This document shows, one piece after another, positions 1,232-57,341 of a stretch of DNA of 64,000 nucleotides. The translations under genes and the position numbers were made by a program. The notes below the pieces were generated by a model that had not been told where the DNA came from, did no database searches, and saw nothing but the letters and a program-made list of their open reading frames with translations. Numbering within the stretch: the stretch's first letter is position 1; every line of letters begins with the position of its first letter. Origin of the DNA: Sordariomycetes sp. S80-01Y (lineage: Eukaryota > Ascomycota > Sordariomycetes); assembly GCA_037042185.1 (NCBI GenBank), contig JAXQJY010000032.1, positions 1,860,001 to 1,924,000 on the forward strand. Reading direction: 5' to 3'.

Positions 1232-3406
1232 TCATCGCCCGCCATGCTTTCCACCAGCCTCCTCCCTCTTCGCACCACCACCGCCGCCGCCGCCGCCCCT
1301 TACTGGCTTCGACTGCGCCGCCTCGTGCCTCCTCAGCTCATCCGGCACCTTGGAGATGGAGCTCTTGCTGAGCATCTGCTTCAGGTCGTACATGACATCC
1401 GTATCCTCACTTCCGAGGAACGTAATGGCCACACCGCTCTTGCCCGCACGACCGGTTCGACCGATGCGGTGAGTGTAGCTCTCGATGTTGGTCGCCATGT
1501 TGAAGTTGACGACCAGCGACACGTCGGGCACGTCAATACCGCGACCGGCCAGATCTGTTGCGACAAGAACCTGGGTCTCGCCGTTGCGCACCGATGCCAG
1601 TGCTGCTTCTCTCTGTTCCTGGGTCTTGGATCCGTGCAGAGTGACGGTCGACCATCCCATTCTCTTGATATCTCTCGCGACAGCGTCGCAATTCCGCTTA
1701 ATGTTGACAAAGACGATGATGGGCGGCCCGAATTCGTCAGACGAGAGGATCTCCTGGAGGCGCTTCTTCTTGCGATCCTCGTTGGGAACGAACTCGACCC
1801 GTTGCTCGACTGTGTCGACGGCCTCACCCGCGTTGCCGATCATGACGGTTGCAGGGCGACGCAAATACTTCCTTGCAATCTTCTCCACTTGCGCCGGCAT
1901 AGTGGCTGTATACATCATCGTCTGACGATAGCGGTCCCTGCCGCCCACGTAGCGCTTCATGAGTTGCGTGTTCTCGGCGTCATCGGTGTCCGGCTTCTCG
2001 TTTCCGACAGGAAGGGCATCCAAGATTTCGTTGACGGATTCTTCGAAACCAAGATCGATCATTCGATCAGCTTCATCCATGACAACGTAGCAGCACTGTG
2101 ACAGGACGAGGAGTCTGCGTTGGATGCAGTCCACGAGACGACCGGGAGTGGCGACGATGATTTCAGCTCCATCCCGCAGGGCGTAGACTTGCTCCTCTAT
2201 CAAGTGACCACCGACGATGCTGACAGTGTGGAAGCCCAGAGGTTCGGCAAACTTCTTGCATTCTGTCTCGATCTGCTGCACCAACTCTCGAGTTGGCGCC
2301 AGGATGAGGGCGTATGGCCCGTCGTTCTTGTTCATCTCATTGATCTGCGGGAGTTCGGAGATGTACACCAGCAAAGGCAGTAAGAAAGCTGCCGTTTTAC
2401 CGGAACCTGTGACGGCAACACCGATGAGATCCCTTGCTTGCAGCGCAATCGGAATGGCCGCCCGTTGGATCGGCGTGGGCTCCTTGTACCCGACCTGGTC
2501 GACAATGTCGAGTATCCGGGACGGCAGCCCAGACTCCTGCCAGTTTCGCATGGGATTCGGCGTAGCCCCGCCCTTTGTAGCGATTCCAAAGTCTTCCTTG
2601 AAAATGCGCCAGTCTCTTTCGCGCATTTCGTGGAGTGCCTTTTCTGTCCATCTCCTCCCAAGACCTGTCTTGTCTGCGCGCTCCTGTGCGCGGTCCCTCG
2701 CCCTGTAGAAATCCTCCATGATGCCCGCCGCACGTTCTTTGCCGTTCTCAACATCTCTTTGCTCGATCATGCGCGCCCTCTTCTTCACGCGCTCCTCCGC
2801 CTCCTGGTCGAATTCGCCGCCCAACCCAGCGTAGGAACCGCCCCGGTTCACGGTCTGACTGGAGTAGAGGGGGTCGTTATCTCGCCATGTGTCCTCGCCC
2901 GCATCCCAGTCGAAGTTGAATTTCTTGTCCATCGTACGCATGCGTTTCTTCTTGGCTGAGAAGTGGGATTGTTGGTTGACTTCAGGCCCGAGGTACCGTG
3001 ACCGTAGCAGCGAAGCTTCGATGTCCTGAGCTGAGCGCTTATCGCCGGTCTTCTCCTCCTTCTTAGCTTCTTTCCTCCCTCGCCCTGCATCGCGAGAGTC
3101 TCGTCCACCACGCCCGCGGTCGCCGTTCAAAGCCTTGGGCCCTGTTGGCACATTGCTCGCGCCGTTCGGTGTTCCTCGCTCGTCAGGTGTTGCAGTGCTT
3201 CCATTTTGACGAGCTGCCCATTTTCTCTCGTCTTCTTTGCGTTTCCGTGCTGCCTCGCTCTCTTTCCGCTTCTTGTCCTCTTCTTCCTGCTTGGTCTTCT
3301 CTGCGGCGAGCTTTTTGCGCTGGGCTTTGGGGATGAATTTCGGTTTCGCGGCCGCGGCGTCGGCTGCCTTCTTCTTGCGCAAGATTTCTTCGATATCCAG
3401 CGGCAT
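1232..3406 (-). CDS. PRP28: PRP28 pre-mRNA-splicing DEAD-box RNA helicase
   Basis: A 724-residue protein in a single exon. PRP28 is the U5 snRNP helicase that displaces U1 from the 5' splice site during spliceosome activation in the nucleus. A charged Lys/Arg/Glu-rich N-terminus (residues 1-210) precedes a full DEAD-box core: a Q-motif region (GYKEPTPIQ, about 307), Walker A GSGKT (about 334), PTREL (about 371), TPGR, DEAD (about 444), TAT in place of SAT, ARGIDV and HRIGRTGRAG. The large insert between the Q motif and N-terminus and the overall size match PRP28 rather than DED1. I chose the ATG at 3406 because MPLDIEEILRKKK is the family-like start. An in-frame ATG at 3556 would add 50 non-conserved residues. 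The gene is head-to-head with mL59. Confidence 0.93.
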   Translation of the reverse strand: MPLDIEEILRKKKAADAAAAKPKFIPKAQRKKLAAEKTKQEEEDKKRKESEAARKRKEDERKWAARQNGSTATPDERGTPNGASNVPTGPKALNGDRGRGGRDSRDAGRGRKEAKKEEKTGDKRSAQDIEASLLRSRYLGPEVNQQSHFSAKKKRMRTMDKKFNFDWDAGEDTWRDNDPLYSSQTVNRGGSYAGLGGEFDQEAEERVKKRARMIEQRDVENGKERAAGIMEDFYRARDRAQERADKTGLGRRWTEKALHEMRERDWRIFKEDFGIATKGGATPNPMRNWQESGLPSRILDIVDQVGYKEPTPIQRAAIPIALQARDLIGVAVTGSGKTAAFLLPLLVYISELPQINEMNKNDGPYALILAPTRELVQQIETECKKFAEPLGFHTVSIVGGHLIEEQVYALRDGAEIIVATPGRLVDCIQRRLLVLSQCCYVVMDEADRMIDLGFEESVNEILDALPVGNEKPDTDDAENTQLMKRYVGGRDRYRQTMMYTATMPAQVEKIARKYLRRPATVMIGNAGEAVDTVEQRVEFVPNEDRKKKRLQEILSSDEFGPPIIVFVNIKRNCDAVARDIKRMGWSTVTLHGSKTQEQREAALASVRNGETQVLVATDLAGRGIDVPDVSLVVNFNMATNIESYTHRIGRTGRAGKSGVAITFLGSEDTDVMYDLKQMLSKSSISKVPDELRRHEAAQSKPVRGGGGGGGGAKREEAGGKHGGR

Positions 3407-3707
3407 CGTGGTACGTTGAAGGCAGATGGAGATTGTGATGTAAAGATCGAAGCAAAGGTGGGAGTTCCCACGAGGCTGTAGAGCAAGGTCGCGAATCTCG
3501 AAGTCCAAGCCAATCACCACGCGATCTTGCAGTGGAGACCACCAGGTGTCTGACATAAAATGTAACCACTAAATTTGATGATCCAACGGAAAATTACTGC
3601 ATTTATTATGTCACCCGATAGCCAGGGCCAGAAATCTTGGTCCTCAGCCTTGGGCATTTCAATGACAGACGTTGACATTCACACGGTTTGCCATACCACA
3701 CAACACA
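3407..3707. promoter_or_regulatory. Shared divergent promoter region, PRP28/mL59
   Basis: Only 301 bases separate the chosen PRP28 start from the mL59 ATG on the opposite strand, so both promoters must lie here. I see no clear TATA box. The in-frame upstream PRP28 ATG at 3556 falls inside this interval. Confidence 0.6.
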
Positions 3708-34897: not shown

Positions 34898-37800
34898 CTA
34901 TTCATCGATTTCTGCCTGCAACTGTATCTCTGATGAAGAGGTCAGATAGAGAGAAACCTAGTAGACTAGAACACACTTACGCCATAGTTTGTTTGCCGAG
35001 GCGGAGATGACGTGGGCTTTGGCCAAGAGTTTTTCTTCATACTTGACTTCGTCTTTACCATTCTGCCGGATCTTGTTCGGTTGTGCCTAAAAACATCAGC
35101 ACACCAGTGGAATGATGGGTTGAAGCGATGCTATGAAAGCAAGACTGACCTGCATCAACACCGGCACAAGCTCCTTAGGGTCGGCGTTCGCAACCGTTCC
35201 AACTGTGCGGAAGCCGTTCTCCCAGAAGACGCGTCTGGAAGCTAAGATTAGCATACGGTCTCATATCTCGGTAGGTAAACCTACGCGGTGCGGCTTTTGA
35301 TGAATGAGATCTTTGCCAGCTCAAGCAGGTCAGTGTGTGCACCAGCCATAAGTCTATCCGAGAAGTGATCCAGAGCCGCAGCGAATACCCTACCGTCTGT
35401 CAATAACTCGTCTTGGCGAAGACGCCGGATTGAACTTACCCCCAGCCCATGGATTGACAAAACTTGATCATACCCGCTGCAAACCCCTGACATGTCTGTG
35501 ACAAGTTTTGGACGGAGCCGCGGGGCATGTCGTACTTTCTTGCCACGGCGTGGATGGGGACCTCGCTGCAGAGATCACGCAGCTGGAGGGCGAGGTAGAA
35601 GCGGCGGTAGATGCGAGAGAGGTCCTTCTCTTCCTGAGTCTTCTCCTTCAGCGAGGCGCCTTGGGCCCTTCCACTCTGTCAGCACTCTACATTCCGCTCC
35701 GCACAGAAGCGGAGGACTTACAGCTTGAGGATCGTTGTGGGCTTGATCCCCAAAAAGCTCAGCACCCTCATCCCACTCTCATCCAACCTTTCCATCTCAT
35801 TCCGGAAAACCTGCCAATTCACCGTCACTCCCATCTCGTGAACCGGGGTGAACGTGTAAAGAATATGCATTTCGCCGTCCATGACGAAGGCACGGAGCGC
35901 CCTACTCAGCTCCTTGTGAATGAAGACGCCGTCGTCAGGGTCGATGGCGGATGCGACAATGGCTTTTCCTAGCTGCGTCGCGGCGTAATTTGAGTGCTCG
36001 TCTTTGGTCACGAAACCCAATTTCTCTATTTCCGTCAAGCTGGCTTCCAAAAGCTCATCCACATGATCTATGCCATGTGTATGGCGGAGCAGGGAACGGC
36101 GGAAGTGGTCACGGATGGATTCGCGAGAGGTTGCTAGACGAATGCATATGACTTCGAGCAATGCGCTGTACGTGTTCAGCGAGGGTGCGACAGCCTTGCG
36201 GGTTGCTTACCGTTGTAGCCGTCTGTTTTCCGTGTTAAGGCAGCTCGTGACCTCCGGGAGGTCGGCGTGCATAAGCTGCACGACTTGCTCGAGGTCACTT
36301 TCCCGACAGCAAAGGTAGGTTTCTCCAACAGGTACCCTGCCCTGCCTACCAGCGCGGCCTCGCATCTGTCTGAGAAGCGCTGGACCCACGAAGTCACGGC
36401 CCATGCGAGCGCCATGGAGTATCACTCGTCTGGCAGGACTGCACACCATCCATCAGTATTCACCTCGGTAAGTATGCGTCCAATGCTTACAGGTTTATGC
36501 CGGCGGCCAGGCTGCAAGTTGCAACACAAACATAAAGAGTACCAGCATCGTAAGCAGCGGCGACAAGGTCGCGTTCCTCAGTGGTTAAACCCGCCTATCG
36601 ATATCAGTCAGTACACCAGGTAGATTTGCCACGCGTGGCGCTCACATCTGGGATCGTTAGCAAAGGACACGGAGGGGAATGTGACTGGTCTTACGATGGA
36701 AGGCTACCCCCTGCAATACCGTCTCCTCCAGGACCGGATCAACACCGGTGCTCAAGCTCCTCAGATCTGAGAGCAGATCCCTTCTCTTCTCAAGCAACTC
36801 TGGGCTGATCTCATGTGTCTGCGGCATTACCCTGGCGATCCATCGAGCATCCGTCTCGCAGATACCCCGGCTTCCGGCGAACACCAAAGCACCAAACCCA
36901 GTTGAAGCCGTTTCATGAGCAAGGGTCACAACAGCATTCAGTACTGGGTCAGCAAGCTCCTTGTGCTTTGATGCTTCTAATTGTTTCACCGGTGCTGCTG
37001 GGTTTTGCGTTGACTGCAGGTTGCTAATCTGGGAAGCTGTCTTCACGAGGCTGCCCGTTGATGCTGCTGGGTAGATTTTGCCTTCGTAAACGAGGTGCTC
37101 GTGGATCGGGACAGGTCGATATTTTGTTTCGTAAGAGTGACCGTCAATCCAGCGTGCCATGAGGTCCATGTTCTAGTGAAAGATTCAGTACGCAAGACTT
37201 TGCTTGTGTTGAGGCGCGCTATACTAACTGGAAGTGTCGCACTCATAGCAATAATCTGGATAGCTTGCTCTGTGTCGAGGCTTAACAATTTGGTCGTCAT
37301 GAGTTCTAGCAAATATCCTCGGTGGGCATCGTCAATCATGTGCAGCTCGTCCAGTACTACACATCGTAGCTGGGAAACGGTGCACTCTTCGATTGCCGTG
37401 TTCACCAGGGCGTTGGCCTTGGGCAGATGGTTAGTAAAAGACTGGATCTACTAGATGTCACGCACCTTTTCCATTGTGCAGACTCCGATATCGAAGTCAT
37501 GCCACGTAGCACGCACTTTGCCCCCGCCAAAGAAACCCACCACCCTGACTGTATCCTCATCTGCCCTTTTCCGCCATACCCGTGATGGGTCGTCTTGCTC
37601 TTGACAAGGCGGATAACGCAACCCATCCACCATACTCCGGAGCCATCGTACCTTCTCCTGTACCAGGGCGACGTAAGGCAGAACAAGGAGTGCCTTGGAC
37701 CCCTTCTCCCCCATCACCCTCTTCAGCATAAGCACTTCGGCAGGGTAAGCTAGGGATCTTCGTAGTGCACGGGGATCACGAACAGTCAGCCACAAGTGAT

Positions 37801-38276
37801 TTGCCACCTCCGGTCGGTGCACAGTAAACCAGATTTTTAGATCCCGCCAACAGCCCCGGTCCTTTCAAGCAAGTTTTCTGCCAAGGGTATATCTGCTTGA
37901 TCCCCAGGGAAGCAAAATTCTCAACCAGCCGCGGCAGAAGCTCGTACGTCGGGTGCGCTAAGCTCAACTCAGGATCACACGAAGATGTCGGCGTGGAAGC
38001 GAAGACTCTTCGTTGGGAGTACTCCGTCATCCCCTCTGATATCTGTTCCAGGTTGACGATAGTGCTGGGCTGTAGTCGAGGTGCTGCCCCTGTGGCGCTA
38101 ATCGCTCGTTGAAATTTGACAGGACCTTGAGGCTTCTGGTCTGACTGTCGAAACTCGGTGCCATTGCTAGACCAGCTTCGCTTTTGACCGGCTATTGCGG
38201 CTGCCTCAAAGTCCTTTTGCCGACCCTGCGCGGATTGCAGGCTGGTCTCATGCTGGAGACCTCGCATGTTGTTCAT
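34898..38276 (-). CDS. HELQ/POLQ-type superfamily 2 DNA helicase
   Basis: Thirteen exons on the minus strand give 922 residues: 37784-38276, 37466-37734, 37229-37417, 36695-37172, 36646-36647, 36491-36594, 36211-36438, 35722-36165, 35440-35673, 35285-35389, 35150-35234, 34981-35086, 34898-34929. Motifs: IKQIYPWQ, Walker A PTGGGKS (about 155), DELH box (about 277), MSATLPN (about 318), GVAFHHAGLTTEERD (about 474), GINLPARR and QMRGRAGRQG. A winged-helix/helical domain then runs to AKAHVISASANKLW. HELQ/POLQ helicases act in repair of replication-linked breaks and crosslinks. There is no polymerase domain in the gene, which favours HELQ. An in-frame TGA lies 13 codons before the chosen ATG. The 2-base exon is the odd feature. 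The first intron has a weak GTTCGT donor. Confidence 0.88.
36646..36647 (-). other. Two-base coding exon in the HELQ-like gene
   Basis: Upstream, exon coding ends CAT C at 36695. The next bases form a canonical intron 36694-36648: GTAAGA donor, TTTGCTAAC branch, CAG acceptor, 47 bases. Then come the bases AT, then a second canonical intron 36645-36595: GTGAGC donor, CTGAC branch, TAG acceptor, 51 bases. Coding resumes GCG GGT TTA. C+AT+GCG reads His-Ala, giving HHAGLT. Without the two bases the remaining exons are out of phase. Confidence 0.75.
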
Positions 38277-52729: not shown

Positions 52730-53835
52730 AGTATATGCGTCGAGATGGCCGGGAGCAGACGGTGCGGATAAGTTCAAGGTTCGGCGACGCCTTCCAGGCA
52801 GTTGTCGTGAGATGAGATGTCGTGGACAGTCGGGATCGGTGGGGAGGAGGTGATGGATGAGGCGACTGGTAGCGGGGACGCTCGATTGACTGCTGGCGTC
52901 GCTGTTGGGGGTCGTCAGCGATCAATTGAGAAGGAGAAATCCGCTCAAATCACATGGGACAACACAGAAACTCCTCAAACTGGGCTTGAGATGGAGTCAA
53001 AATAGAGGCATGTGATGAGGATGTGATGGTGGTGGTGTAACGTTAACGCGGGGAAAAGGTGGTTGGTCTGCCACTTGTACAGTGGTCGAGGTGCGTCAAT
53101 CTGCCCGTGGGGAAGCCAATCGGCCCACTGCCGCCATCGCCAACAGGGGCGCGCTATCCTGCTATGCGGGGGAGATGCAGCCCGCCTTTATTCCCGCCTA
53201 GTTTGACCTCAGGTTGATATGTATGGAGTCTTGGCTTCTGGATGCCACCGTGGAGCGTCGAATGTCTGAAAGCGAAGTGCTCACCTCATTTTGCTGGTTG
53301 TGCCGTTATCCAAGATGTCTGTCTTTCAGATTCGCAGTGGCCCTGCGCATTTGGCTCTGGAGGCCGTGGCGGGAAACGCAAACCAGTATATTTTTTTTGT
53401 TTTTTGACGCGAGACACCACACAAAGTATTCGGAATCAAGTGTAGGAATCAAAGGTGAGGATAGTTGACGTAGGGATATACCGTGAGACGTTTTGTACAG
53501 GGTGGGCTGCTTGAGGGCTCGGAAGTGTCGAACAATGAGGAAGAAGAAGGATGGAGATTGGTGCTCCAAGGCCAACCAAAAGATGGCGACCTTGACATGA
53601 CCAGGATTAGCACTGTCACTGAACGTATTTCTGAGATAGAAGGTGCAGTCGACACCGACGTGGTCGACGCAGGAGGAGCCGCGTGAAAAGGGGTGACTCC
53701 TTAGGACCTGGTAAACAGTGCAGACACTGCTGTCCACACAGTCCAAGCTTATCGATCAAAAATATCCCGAACCGACGCGGTGACCTCGTCAACATCTATG
53801 ACCGCGTCGCCACGCTCACTTCGCTCAAAGCCCTC
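52730..53835. other. Divergent intergenic region, AMS1 / MSH1
   Basis: About 1.1 kb holding both promoters. The MSH1 frame stays open upstream to about 53683 but contains no ATG before 53836. No other gene supported. Confidence 0.5.
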
Positions 53836-56800
53836 ATGCTTCGTTCCGCCGGAGCTCAAGGGCTTCGTCATCGCGCGAAGCATGATGCGTGGGCGTTTGT
53901 AGTGCCCTGCGCGGCGCACCGTCCCCTACTCTTACCGCTCACGCAAGCGCACGCGGGCCGACCAGCTATGCAAGTCAGGGGCAAAAAGACAAAGACAACA
54001 GTCAATCTCGAAGACTTACCCCAGGGTGCACTGCCAAAGTTGGACCCTCTGCCGGAGGAGACAGCCGTCAAGGATGACCCCCCCTATCCGACAGTCGTGT
54101 TGCAGGCCAAGCGCAACATGCAAAAGTTCGACAATTGCGTCTTGTTGACGCGTGTTGGTGGTTTCTATGAACTGTATTTTGAGCACGCGGACGAATATGG
54201 ACCGCTCCTGAACCTCAAGGTTGCATCCAAGAAGACGGCGGCCGGCCCAGTTCCCATGGTAAGTGTTGCATGCTATGCCCGTCTTTGTCGGGATGAGTGG
54301 CTGACTTGAAAAGGCAGGATTTCCTTTCTTTCAGCTGGACCGGTTTCTCAAAATTCTGGTTCAGGACCTAAATCGTTACGTCGCTATCGCAGAGGAATTT
54401 CCCAACGATGCTGCAGACAAGATCAAATCCGGTGGCTTGATGCACGACAGAAGAGTGGCACGCATCATCACACCTGGCACGCTGATCGATGAGAACTTCA
54501 TGGACCCTTACGTCAACAACTACGTTATGGCTATTCACGTTCGATCCCGTGACTTCGATGCTGCCTCGCTGGATAAGACAGCGGCAAGCGGGACCACAGA
54601 GTCTCTCTCAGCAAAGGAGCCACTGCCTCTAGGTCTGGCGTGGCTGGATCTATCCACGGGCCACTTCTTCACGCAGTCAACAGACATTTCATCGCTGCCA
54701 GCAATCCTGTCACGCGTGAGTCCGAGAGAGATCGTTTTGGACCAAAGCTTGGAGTCCCAGAGGGACCATGGTATCTTCTCGATCCTAGCCGAGGATCGCC
54801 ACCTTATCACATACGCAACCCCAGGTGGTCTCTCAGATATGTCGCTCTGGACTCCCTATCTGGAAGCCGAGGTACCATCTATTGCCAGGGAAGCGTTTGT
54901 AGAAGACGAAGTGCTTGCTGGCGATCTCGTACTGAACTACGTCAAAGACCGACTTCAGGGGTTGAGCATGAAACTGCAACCACCACTACGACACGAAAAT
55001 ATGGAAATAATGAGTGTCGACAAGAACAGCCTAAGAGCTCTTGAAATCAAGCAAACAATTCGAGATGGCCAATTCCGCGGGAGCCTGTTGCATGCTATCA
55101 GGCGGACAGTCACCAAGAGCGGCGCACGTTTGCTTAATGAATGGCTCAGCTCGCCATCGACATCCCTCGAAGTTATCAAGGCTCGCCAAGACCTTGTTTC
55201 CCGCTTCATAGACGCTGGAGATCTAAGGGACACTATAGTCGTCTTGTTGAGGCGATGCTACGACTCTCAAAGACTGGTCCAGAAGTTTGCACTCGGCCGC
55301 GGTGACCCAGACGATCTACTTGGCCTTGCCAGCACCATTCGAGCCACTGAAGATGTTGTGTCCCACCTCAAACGGGCTTGTACTGGGTCCGAGGACTCGG
55401 AGCATCCCGATTGCCTCGAGTCACTTACCCGTCGCATCAGTTCTGCGGAGCCCTTGAAGCTGGCAAAGCGCATCAACGATGCGATCGACGAAGAAGGCGT
55501 TGTACACCAACAAGAGGCTCAAGAAGCGACAGCTAGCGAAGTCATGGCTTTGGCTGAGAATATTGTATCCACGGAGGGGAATCAAGAAGATGCAAACAAC
55601 TTGCCCAAGGCCAAGAGAAAGCGCGTTCAGTCTGTCAGAGAGGCATACGACAACGAGAATGAGTCGTGGGTAATGAAGCCTGCGGCCAGCTCAGGACTGA
55701 AGAAACTTCACGCAGAGCTAGCCTCCCTCCAGCAAGAGAGGATCGATCTAGCGGAAAGCCTTCGCGAAAGATTCCAAGCCTCCTCACTCACTCTTCGCTG
55801 GACCCCTGGTCTCGGTCACATTGCTCACATCAAGGGCAAAGATCTCAAGCATGTTAACGACATTCGTACACTGTCATCAAGTCGGAGCACGCGCTCATTC
55901 CACCTTCCCGAGTGGACATCCCTCGGCCAGCGTCTAGACCAAGTCCGCTTCCACATTCGCAGCGAGGAGACAAAGGTATTTCAGTCTCTTCGCGAACATG
56001 TGGTTCGCAATCTTGTCAAGCTTCGCCGCAACGCAGCTGTTCTTGACGAGCTCGACATTGCCACCTCCTTCGCTAAGCTGGCCGTCGAGCAGAACTTGGT
56101 GAGACCTCAGCTTAACAACTCAACATCACACAAGATCATCGGTGGCCGTCATCCTACGGTCGAGGGTGGTCTGTACGAGCAGGGCCGGAGCTTCGTGCGC
56201 AACGACTGTCTGGTGGGCACACCTTCCGCTGGGAGGCTCTGGCTCATCACAGGGCCGAATATGGCTGGCAAAAGTACATATCTTCGACAAAACGCTCTCA
56301 TCACAATCCTTGCGCAAATAGGTTGCTATGTTCCGGCTTCGTTTGCAGAGATAGGCATCGTGGATGCGATATTTAGTCGCGTAGGATCAGCAGACAACCT
56401 CTACCGCGACCAGAGCACCTTCATGGTGGAGATGTTGGAAACGGCCCAGATCTTGAAGCAGGCCACACCACGCTCCTTCGTCATTATGGACGAGATTGGC
56501 CGCGGGACAACACCCGAGGACGGCACCGCGGTGTCATATGCCTGCCTCCAGCACCTGGTCACCGTGAACCAATGCCGGACATTGTTCGCAACGCACTTCC
56601 ACGCAGTTGCCGATCTTGCTGCCGCCGAAGGCTTCGGGGAATCTGACAGCGGTTCTGTGCATACATACTGCACTGACGTGGAGGAGGACGGCCAGGGAGG
56701 GTTCGTCTACGTGCACAAGCTACGAAAGGGCGTCAACAGGCAAAGTCATGCGCTTAAGGTGGCGCGGCTGGCCGGTATGCCGGAGGCTGCCATTGGGACT

Positions 56801-56875
56801 GCACGTCGCTTACTAGAACACGAGGGCAACATGTTGGAACAGTCGTTGAAAAAACAAGCAGCCGCATCTGGGTAA
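53836..56875 (+). CDS. MSH1: Mitochondrial DNA mismatch repair protein MSH1 (MutS)
   Basis: Two exons, 53836-54258 and 54314-56875, give 994 residues. MSH1 is the MutS homologue that keeps mitochondrial DNA stable in fungi. The N-terminus (MLRSAGAQGLRHRAKHDAW) is basic and suits mitochondrial import. MutS domain I shows FDNCVLLTRVGGFYELYFEH, with the mismatch-contacting aromatic-x-Glu region as GFYEL, and continues after the intron as AGFPFFQLDRFLKILV. The ATPase has Walker A TGPNMAGKST (about 788), Walker B/signature DEIGRGTTPEDG (about 866) and FATHFHAV. Length and domain order match fungal MSH1 rather than nuclear MSH2-6. The intron is GTAAGT...AAAAG. Confidence 0.94.
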
Positions 56876-57341
56876 GACGGAACAGGAGATAGTCGTTGTT
56901 TGAAGCATGTGCCTGTGGACTTTTGGATGTTAGCTTTGATACCCTTGTAACGATGCGTGCAACAAAATTTTGATTCATGAATTGGAGTCATACAATAGTG
57001 ATGTATAGTGTCATCAGGAGATATCAGGGTTAAAAAGCTCTTGATACGTTTTCATAATCATCCAACGAGGGGGAAAATTGAGAAATGGACTAACCTTTCC
57101 AGGAATGGAAGACGTGCCGCGAACACATGTCACTGAGTAGCACCTTGACGGGGTCTTCGCTCTCTAGCGTTTCACCACCGTACTGAATCATACGTTTCGA
57201 AGATCATGTCTCATTTCGCATCGCAGTGGGCCCTTTCGAGCTGTCCACAGTCTATGTAGTCGTTTGATGTTAAACCCCATAAGTCGCGATTCGAAATCAA
57301 GACCATAACTCCGATCCGTCATCGAGAGCGGACATCTTCGT
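56876..57341. other. Convergent spacer, MSH1 / P0
   Basis: 466 bases between genes ending toward each other, holding both 3' UTRs. No gene seen. Confidence 0.55.

Follow-up and report, generated by a model that had tools for sequence, protein, structure and literature searches.

A helicase gene of the ascomycete Sordariomycetes sp. S80-01Y contains, as a strong prediction from its sequence, a coding exon of just two bases, AT, set between two short introns. We consider it very probable that AT is a coding microexon, probably constitutive, and that the introns on either side of it are spliced out in succession, each recognised by intron definition. Positions refer to the window, i.e. the whole stretch of 64,000 nucleotides analysed, which lies on contig C15 of a genome of 30.9 Mb in 16 contigs. 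The features are as follows.

34898–38276, minus strand: HELQ/POLQ-like helicase gene (gene model, DNA polymerase theta alignment and domain matches)
36695–37172, minus strand: exon 4, ending ...GVAFH plus C, the first base of the second His codon
36648–36694, minus strand: intron 4, 47 nt, phase 1 (donor GTAAGA, branch GCTAACG, acceptor CAG)
36646–36647, minus strand: exon 5, the predicted two-base coding exon AT, completing CAT, the second His of motif IVa (F/YHHAGL)
36595–36645, minus strand: intron 5, 51 nt, phase 0 (donor GTGAGC, branch ACTGACT, acceptor TAG)
36491–36594, minus strand: exon 6, starting AGLTTEERDLV...

On the minus strand, exon 4 ends in ...GGGGTAGCCTTCCATC (last bases CATC) and exon 6 begins, after the 51-nt intron, with GCGGGTTTAACC..., the AT exon supplying the last two bases of the second His codon. 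With AT included, the product reads GVAFHHAGLT, identical to DNA polymerase theta in the alignment over query residues 114–889; with AT skipped, a stop is reached at codon 482. The earlier note had described two canonical introns around AT and the rebuilding of HHAGLT through C+AT+GCG, and both descriptions hold, the former in sequence as well as in coordinates. The reference set comprised 81 confident introns from predictions over 264 kb of the genome; these short GT-AG introns (median 54 nt) point to an ascomycete-like filamentous fungus. Against this set, intron 4 stands at the 80th percentile for total signal and the 10th for length, with its donor GTAAGA at the 62nd, and intron 5 stands at the 36th and 42nd percentiles for signal and length, respectively. 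Exon 5 is well within the size range of microexons (≤15 nt), is predicted to be bordered on both sides by canonical GT-AG introns with branch sites, and is needed both for the frame and for a conserved protein sequence. F/YHHAGL is motif IVa, described in excerpts of PMC10484726 as highly conserved in Hel308/HELQ, where replacement of its phenylalanine changes unwinding and annealing; in the M. thermautotrophicus protein, His297 shares an interaction network with Phe295 (same excerpts). Judging from the spacing of the motif, we read His297 as the probable equivalent of the second His here.

The helicase gene and its protein

The gene model built here comprises 13 coding exons and 920 codons (minus strand, 38276–34898). 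The earlier note had likewise counted 13 exons but arrived at 923 codons, a difference that may sit at uncertain boundaries. In our model the start codon at 38276 was imposed, the two boundaries between exons 1 and 2 were placed by hand, and exons 3–13 follow the top-scoring model of the program at penalties −6 and −4, in which exons could be of any length. The boundary between exons 1 and 2 (intron 37783–37735, donor GTTCGT) was set manually because it restores GGGKSLVADLLMLKRV; the intron preferred by the program near this place deletes the Walker A region and was rejected. This first intron (minus strand) combines a poor donor with an AAG acceptor, and the sequence following Walker A is recovered only with both. 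The gene is intron-rich, with 12 introns in the model, one of which (35149–35087, minus strand) has the less common donor GTCAGT.

The best relative of known structure is the helicase region of DNA polymerase theta (5a9f, which we take to be the human enzyme; E 1.4e-119, query residues 114–889), and among solved structures the alignment of Hel308 to the protein is weaker. The protein contains DEAD, Helicase_C, HTH_61 (winged helix), POLQ_helical and DUF7898 domains, i.e. the DEAD and Helicase_C core together with the HTH_61 and POLQ_helical domains of Hel308/HELQ/POLQ-type helicases, in agreement with the HELQ/POLQ-like identity proposed from sequence earlier. NCBIfam Hel308 models also match (E 5.5e-61), but below their own curated cut-offs. 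The single POLQ_helical match found in the genome is this gene, and the single match found for an A-family polymerase domain (DNA_pol_A) lies on another contig (G000:C9:1504850-1505677). Since the model ends at 34898 without a fused A-family polymerase domain and the sole match to such a domain lies elsewhere, the protein looks like a stand-alone, HELQ-like helicase, whose best solved relative is nevertheless DNA polymerase theta. Protein scans of prokaryotic and viral contig collections gave 15 and 5 pattern matches, respectively, and no relative. The same window also encodes, at 1235–3568 (minus strand), a DEAD-box helicase carrying a DDX23-like domain, which may act in splicing.

Alternative readings of the interval and the role of chance

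We enumerated splice readings within 36491–36790, keeping those that hold the downstream frame without a stop; single introns were at least 30 nt long with GT, GC or AT donors and AG or AC acceptors, and paired GT-AG introns were at least 38 nt each. HHAGLT results from exactly one of the 73 open two-intron GT-AG readings, the one with the AT exon. Within the same interval it is found in none of the 48 open single-intron readings and in none of the 93 open nested GT-AG readings, and no single intron of at least 30 nt, whatever its ends, yields GVAFHHAGLT. Among the enumerated readings, the motif is kept by the AT-exon reading only. The earlier note had gone further, holding that any single-intron reading either shifts the frame or needs a non-AG end; this is not the case, as 10 of the 48 are single GT-AG introns that hold the frame without a stop, although all 10 lose HHAGLT.

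Three of these 10 introns were scored, namely 36707–36595 and 36719–36595 (both at percentile 8.6) and 36668–36595 (percentile 2.5). Use of a single in-frame intron such as 36707–36595 (113 nt, dropping VAFHH, 915 aa) or 36668–36595 (74 nt, giving VAFHRKTSHIPLRAGLT, 928 aa) is very improbable. Both candidates are GT-AG introns that keep the frame to the end, and a gene caller that sets a lower limit on exon size might pick either of them. However, their donors, GTAGCC and GTCCTT, respectively, are poor, their total signal is at percentiles 8.6 and 2.5 of the 81 confident introns, and both wreck a motif that is conserved across Hel308/HELQ and polymerase theta. Moreover, their use would leave the adjacent, better donor GTAAGA idle. 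Given the ten in-frame introns, a long protein from a product lacking AT is conceivable. Automatic gene callers, as the earlier note supposed, are likely to overlook the AT exon.

A sequencing or assembly error, or a real 2-bp deletion, would offer a different account, in which the true gene has one intron of ~100 nt, CATCAT is exonic and the inner splice sites arose by chance. Consistent with it, the 100-nt interval taken whole reaches percentile 65 and would pass as a fair single intron, but the inner sites are difficult to obtain by chance. We made 100,000 dinucleotide shuffles of the interval, leaving its first 6 bases and its last 3 unchanged. In 174 of them an inner two-base exon appeared that completes His and whose two introns both exceed the 5th percentile of the confident set. 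In just 2 was neither intron weaker than the weaker of the observed pair, i.e. the inner branch, acceptor, AY and donor had the observed strength, which makes this account very improbable. An exon of at most 14 nt that restores the frame was obtained in 1,708 shuffles.

The arrangement is also rare in its surroundings. Across both strands of 264 kb, this is the sole site at which two introns of 42–75 nt lie 1–10 nt apart, with thresholds just under the observed scores, and three block-shuffled versions of the 264 kb contain no such paired-intron site. The gene models picked AT unprompted, and the segment containing it gains 7.35 nats over a model with a 15-nt minimum exon, ~1.4 of which is attributable to an 11-nt candidate also located there. 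In the models of the 264 kb, exons shorter than 15 nt occur at four sites (2, 6, 11 and 13 nt), AT alone being shorter than 6 nt, and the 6-nt and 11-nt candidates have no independent support. The 13-nt exon (56934–56946), likewise unsupported, is predicted at both penalties, and its segment gains 13.63 nats, more than that of AT; a 1-nt exon at 53441, predicted at a lenient penalty, also lacks independent support. Taken alone, the ab initio choice of tiny exons is therefore weak evidence for the AT exon. The 13-nt and 1-nt exons lie near a MutS-family gene (54305–56872, plus strand; MutS domains I, II, III and V), and in our judgement they are probably artefacts of joining unrelated frames. 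Retraining the splice model ab initio drifted towards weak introns and was dropped in favour of fixed parameters.

As for the origin of the paired introns, the alignment of introns 4 and 5 scores 6.0. This lies inside the range obtained when they are compared with 41 further introns of about their length, where the maxima are 9.5 and 12.5, and although only 1.4% of 500 shuffles of the first of the pair reach it, we see no case for duplication. The genome search, with its caveat on common words, found no second match of the 100-nt interval, which therefore gives no sign of being a repeated introner-type element.

Proposed intron definition and the probable order of removal

Each of the two flanking introns would be an ordinary short intron of the U2 type, complete in itself and recognised as a unit across its length. 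In ascomycetes, splice sites are paired across introns (excerpts of PMC6616335 and PMC12403724), so a two-base exon would need no recognition of its own. For the same reason, the objection raised in the earlier note, that such an exon is hard to define on both sides at once, matters little here. The acceptor CAG and the donor GT are two bases apart, and their joint occupancy by both machineries is unlikely on steric grounds; we infer that the introns are removed stepwise, since acceptor and donor would be too close for simultaneous use. The same argument was made for the 1-nt exon of Arabidopsis APC11 (available text of PMC4674806).

With regard to order, there is a weak lean towards removal of the 5' intron (36694–36648) first. 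Once that intron is gone, the second donor would read CAT/GTGAGC, with 6/9 consensus matches compared with 5/9 before. The first donor has 5/9 matches, no better than the second, but its intronic bases and branch score higher; the lean is only weak because the first donor does not exceed the second despite these stronger intronic signals. The opposite order is known from a 9-nt potato exon, where, according to excerpts of PMC4674806, the second intron is removed before the first.

Four partial products can be written for the locus, namely AT skipped, either intron kept and both kept. All of them stop early, at codons 482–491, with 7 or 8 junctions downstream. Thus, among the complete form and these four, only complete stepwise splicing would give the full helicase. 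Decay of early-stop products is expected.

Comparison with known tiny exons and paired introns

A close fungal parallel in arrangement is the stwintron, in which one intron interrupts a splice element of another and so forces the order of removal (excerpts of PMC6616335 and PMC12403724). Like ascomycete stwintrons of the [D], [L] and [A] types described there, introns 4 and 5 are two short U2 introns packed together, for which consecutive splicing and intron definition are proposed. In contrast to stwintrons, two coding bases remain here and the sequence forces no order: no donor, branch or acceptor is interrupted, and each intron already has all its elements before any splicing, so that an internal intron need not leave first. 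Because no splice element is interrupted, the locus is not a stwintron, and the analogy drawn in the earlier note is a loose one, of which stepwise removal remains plausible. A true stwintron, in which one of the two introns would lie inside a splice element of its partner and the order would be forced, can be regarded as extremely improbable. Such introns do occur in ascomycetes and need consecutive splicing (excerpts of PMC9024468 and PMC12403724), but introns 4 and 5 are each complete without removal of the other, and the open nested readings fail, as noted above, to give HHAGLT.

With the stepwise AT-exon reading as the preferred one, the nearest counterparts are the 1-nt exons of plants, reported for APC11 and VPS55 in the available text of PMC4674806 and PMC8831610; the Arabidopsis one is constitutive, and stepwise splicing was proposed for it (PMC4674806, excerpts). 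In both the plant cases and ours, a tiny coding exon that is essential for the frame lies between introns, and stepwise removal is proposed; the plant exons were absent from annotations. They were, however, confirmed by cDNA, RT-PCR and RNA-seq, whereas the present exon is fungal, 2 nt long and predicted from sequence alone. At a 1-nt exon, a standard mapper placed reads wrongly (PMC8831610). An annotation of sago palm lists a shortest exon of 2 bp (excerpts of PMC8760474). Recursive splicing and zero-nucleotide exons, as named in PMC4674806, share with our locus an acceptor beside a donor and stepwise removal, but here two bases are predicted to stay in the mRNA, and the introns are ~50 nt rather than long.

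In fungi, small internal exons have been described in Trichoderma virens Xlr2 (20 nt, alternatively used; excerpts of PMC11121469), Aspergillus niger rtnA (exon II, 15 nt, alternatively used; excerpts of PMC6616335) and Phanerochaete chrysosporium P450 genes (down to 6 bp; excerpts of PMC1184071). All of these are at least 6 nt long, compared with 2 nt here. According to the accessible part of PMC11121469, functional microexons had not previously been described in filamentous fungi. No fungal 2-nt exon appeared among the literature matches listed, with most subscription papers outside the reach of the search. A second literature candidate for a two-base exon turned out, in the text available, to be a table phrase that does not concern a 2-nt exon, and no small-exon passages were found in PMC5639578 and PMC9024468.

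Overall, the two-base exon appears to add one more, very small case to a known phenomenon, that of microexons, which in plants extend to 1 nt. The two introns, two bases apart, in phases 1 and 0 and at the same His codon, would form a natural intermediate for a two-base shift: descendants losing either intron would show an apparent two-base intron shift. Intron sliding is debated (excerpts of PMC7730772). Furthermore, since the four simple error products stop early, splicing efficiency could tune the level of the repair helicase. A bolder reading takes AT as the smallest fungal exon yet seen and the locus as a living intermediate in an apparent intron slide, with splicing efficiency setting the helicase level; it is tentative, and we regard it as rather unlikely. 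In practical terms, gene callers that impose a lower limit on exon size would probably lose or corrupt motif IVa of this repair helicase. If confirmed, the AT exon would mean that fungal intron-definition splicing tolerates an exon below any fungal size among the matches listed; it would also offer a simple test of stepwise splicing and bear on apparent intron sliding.
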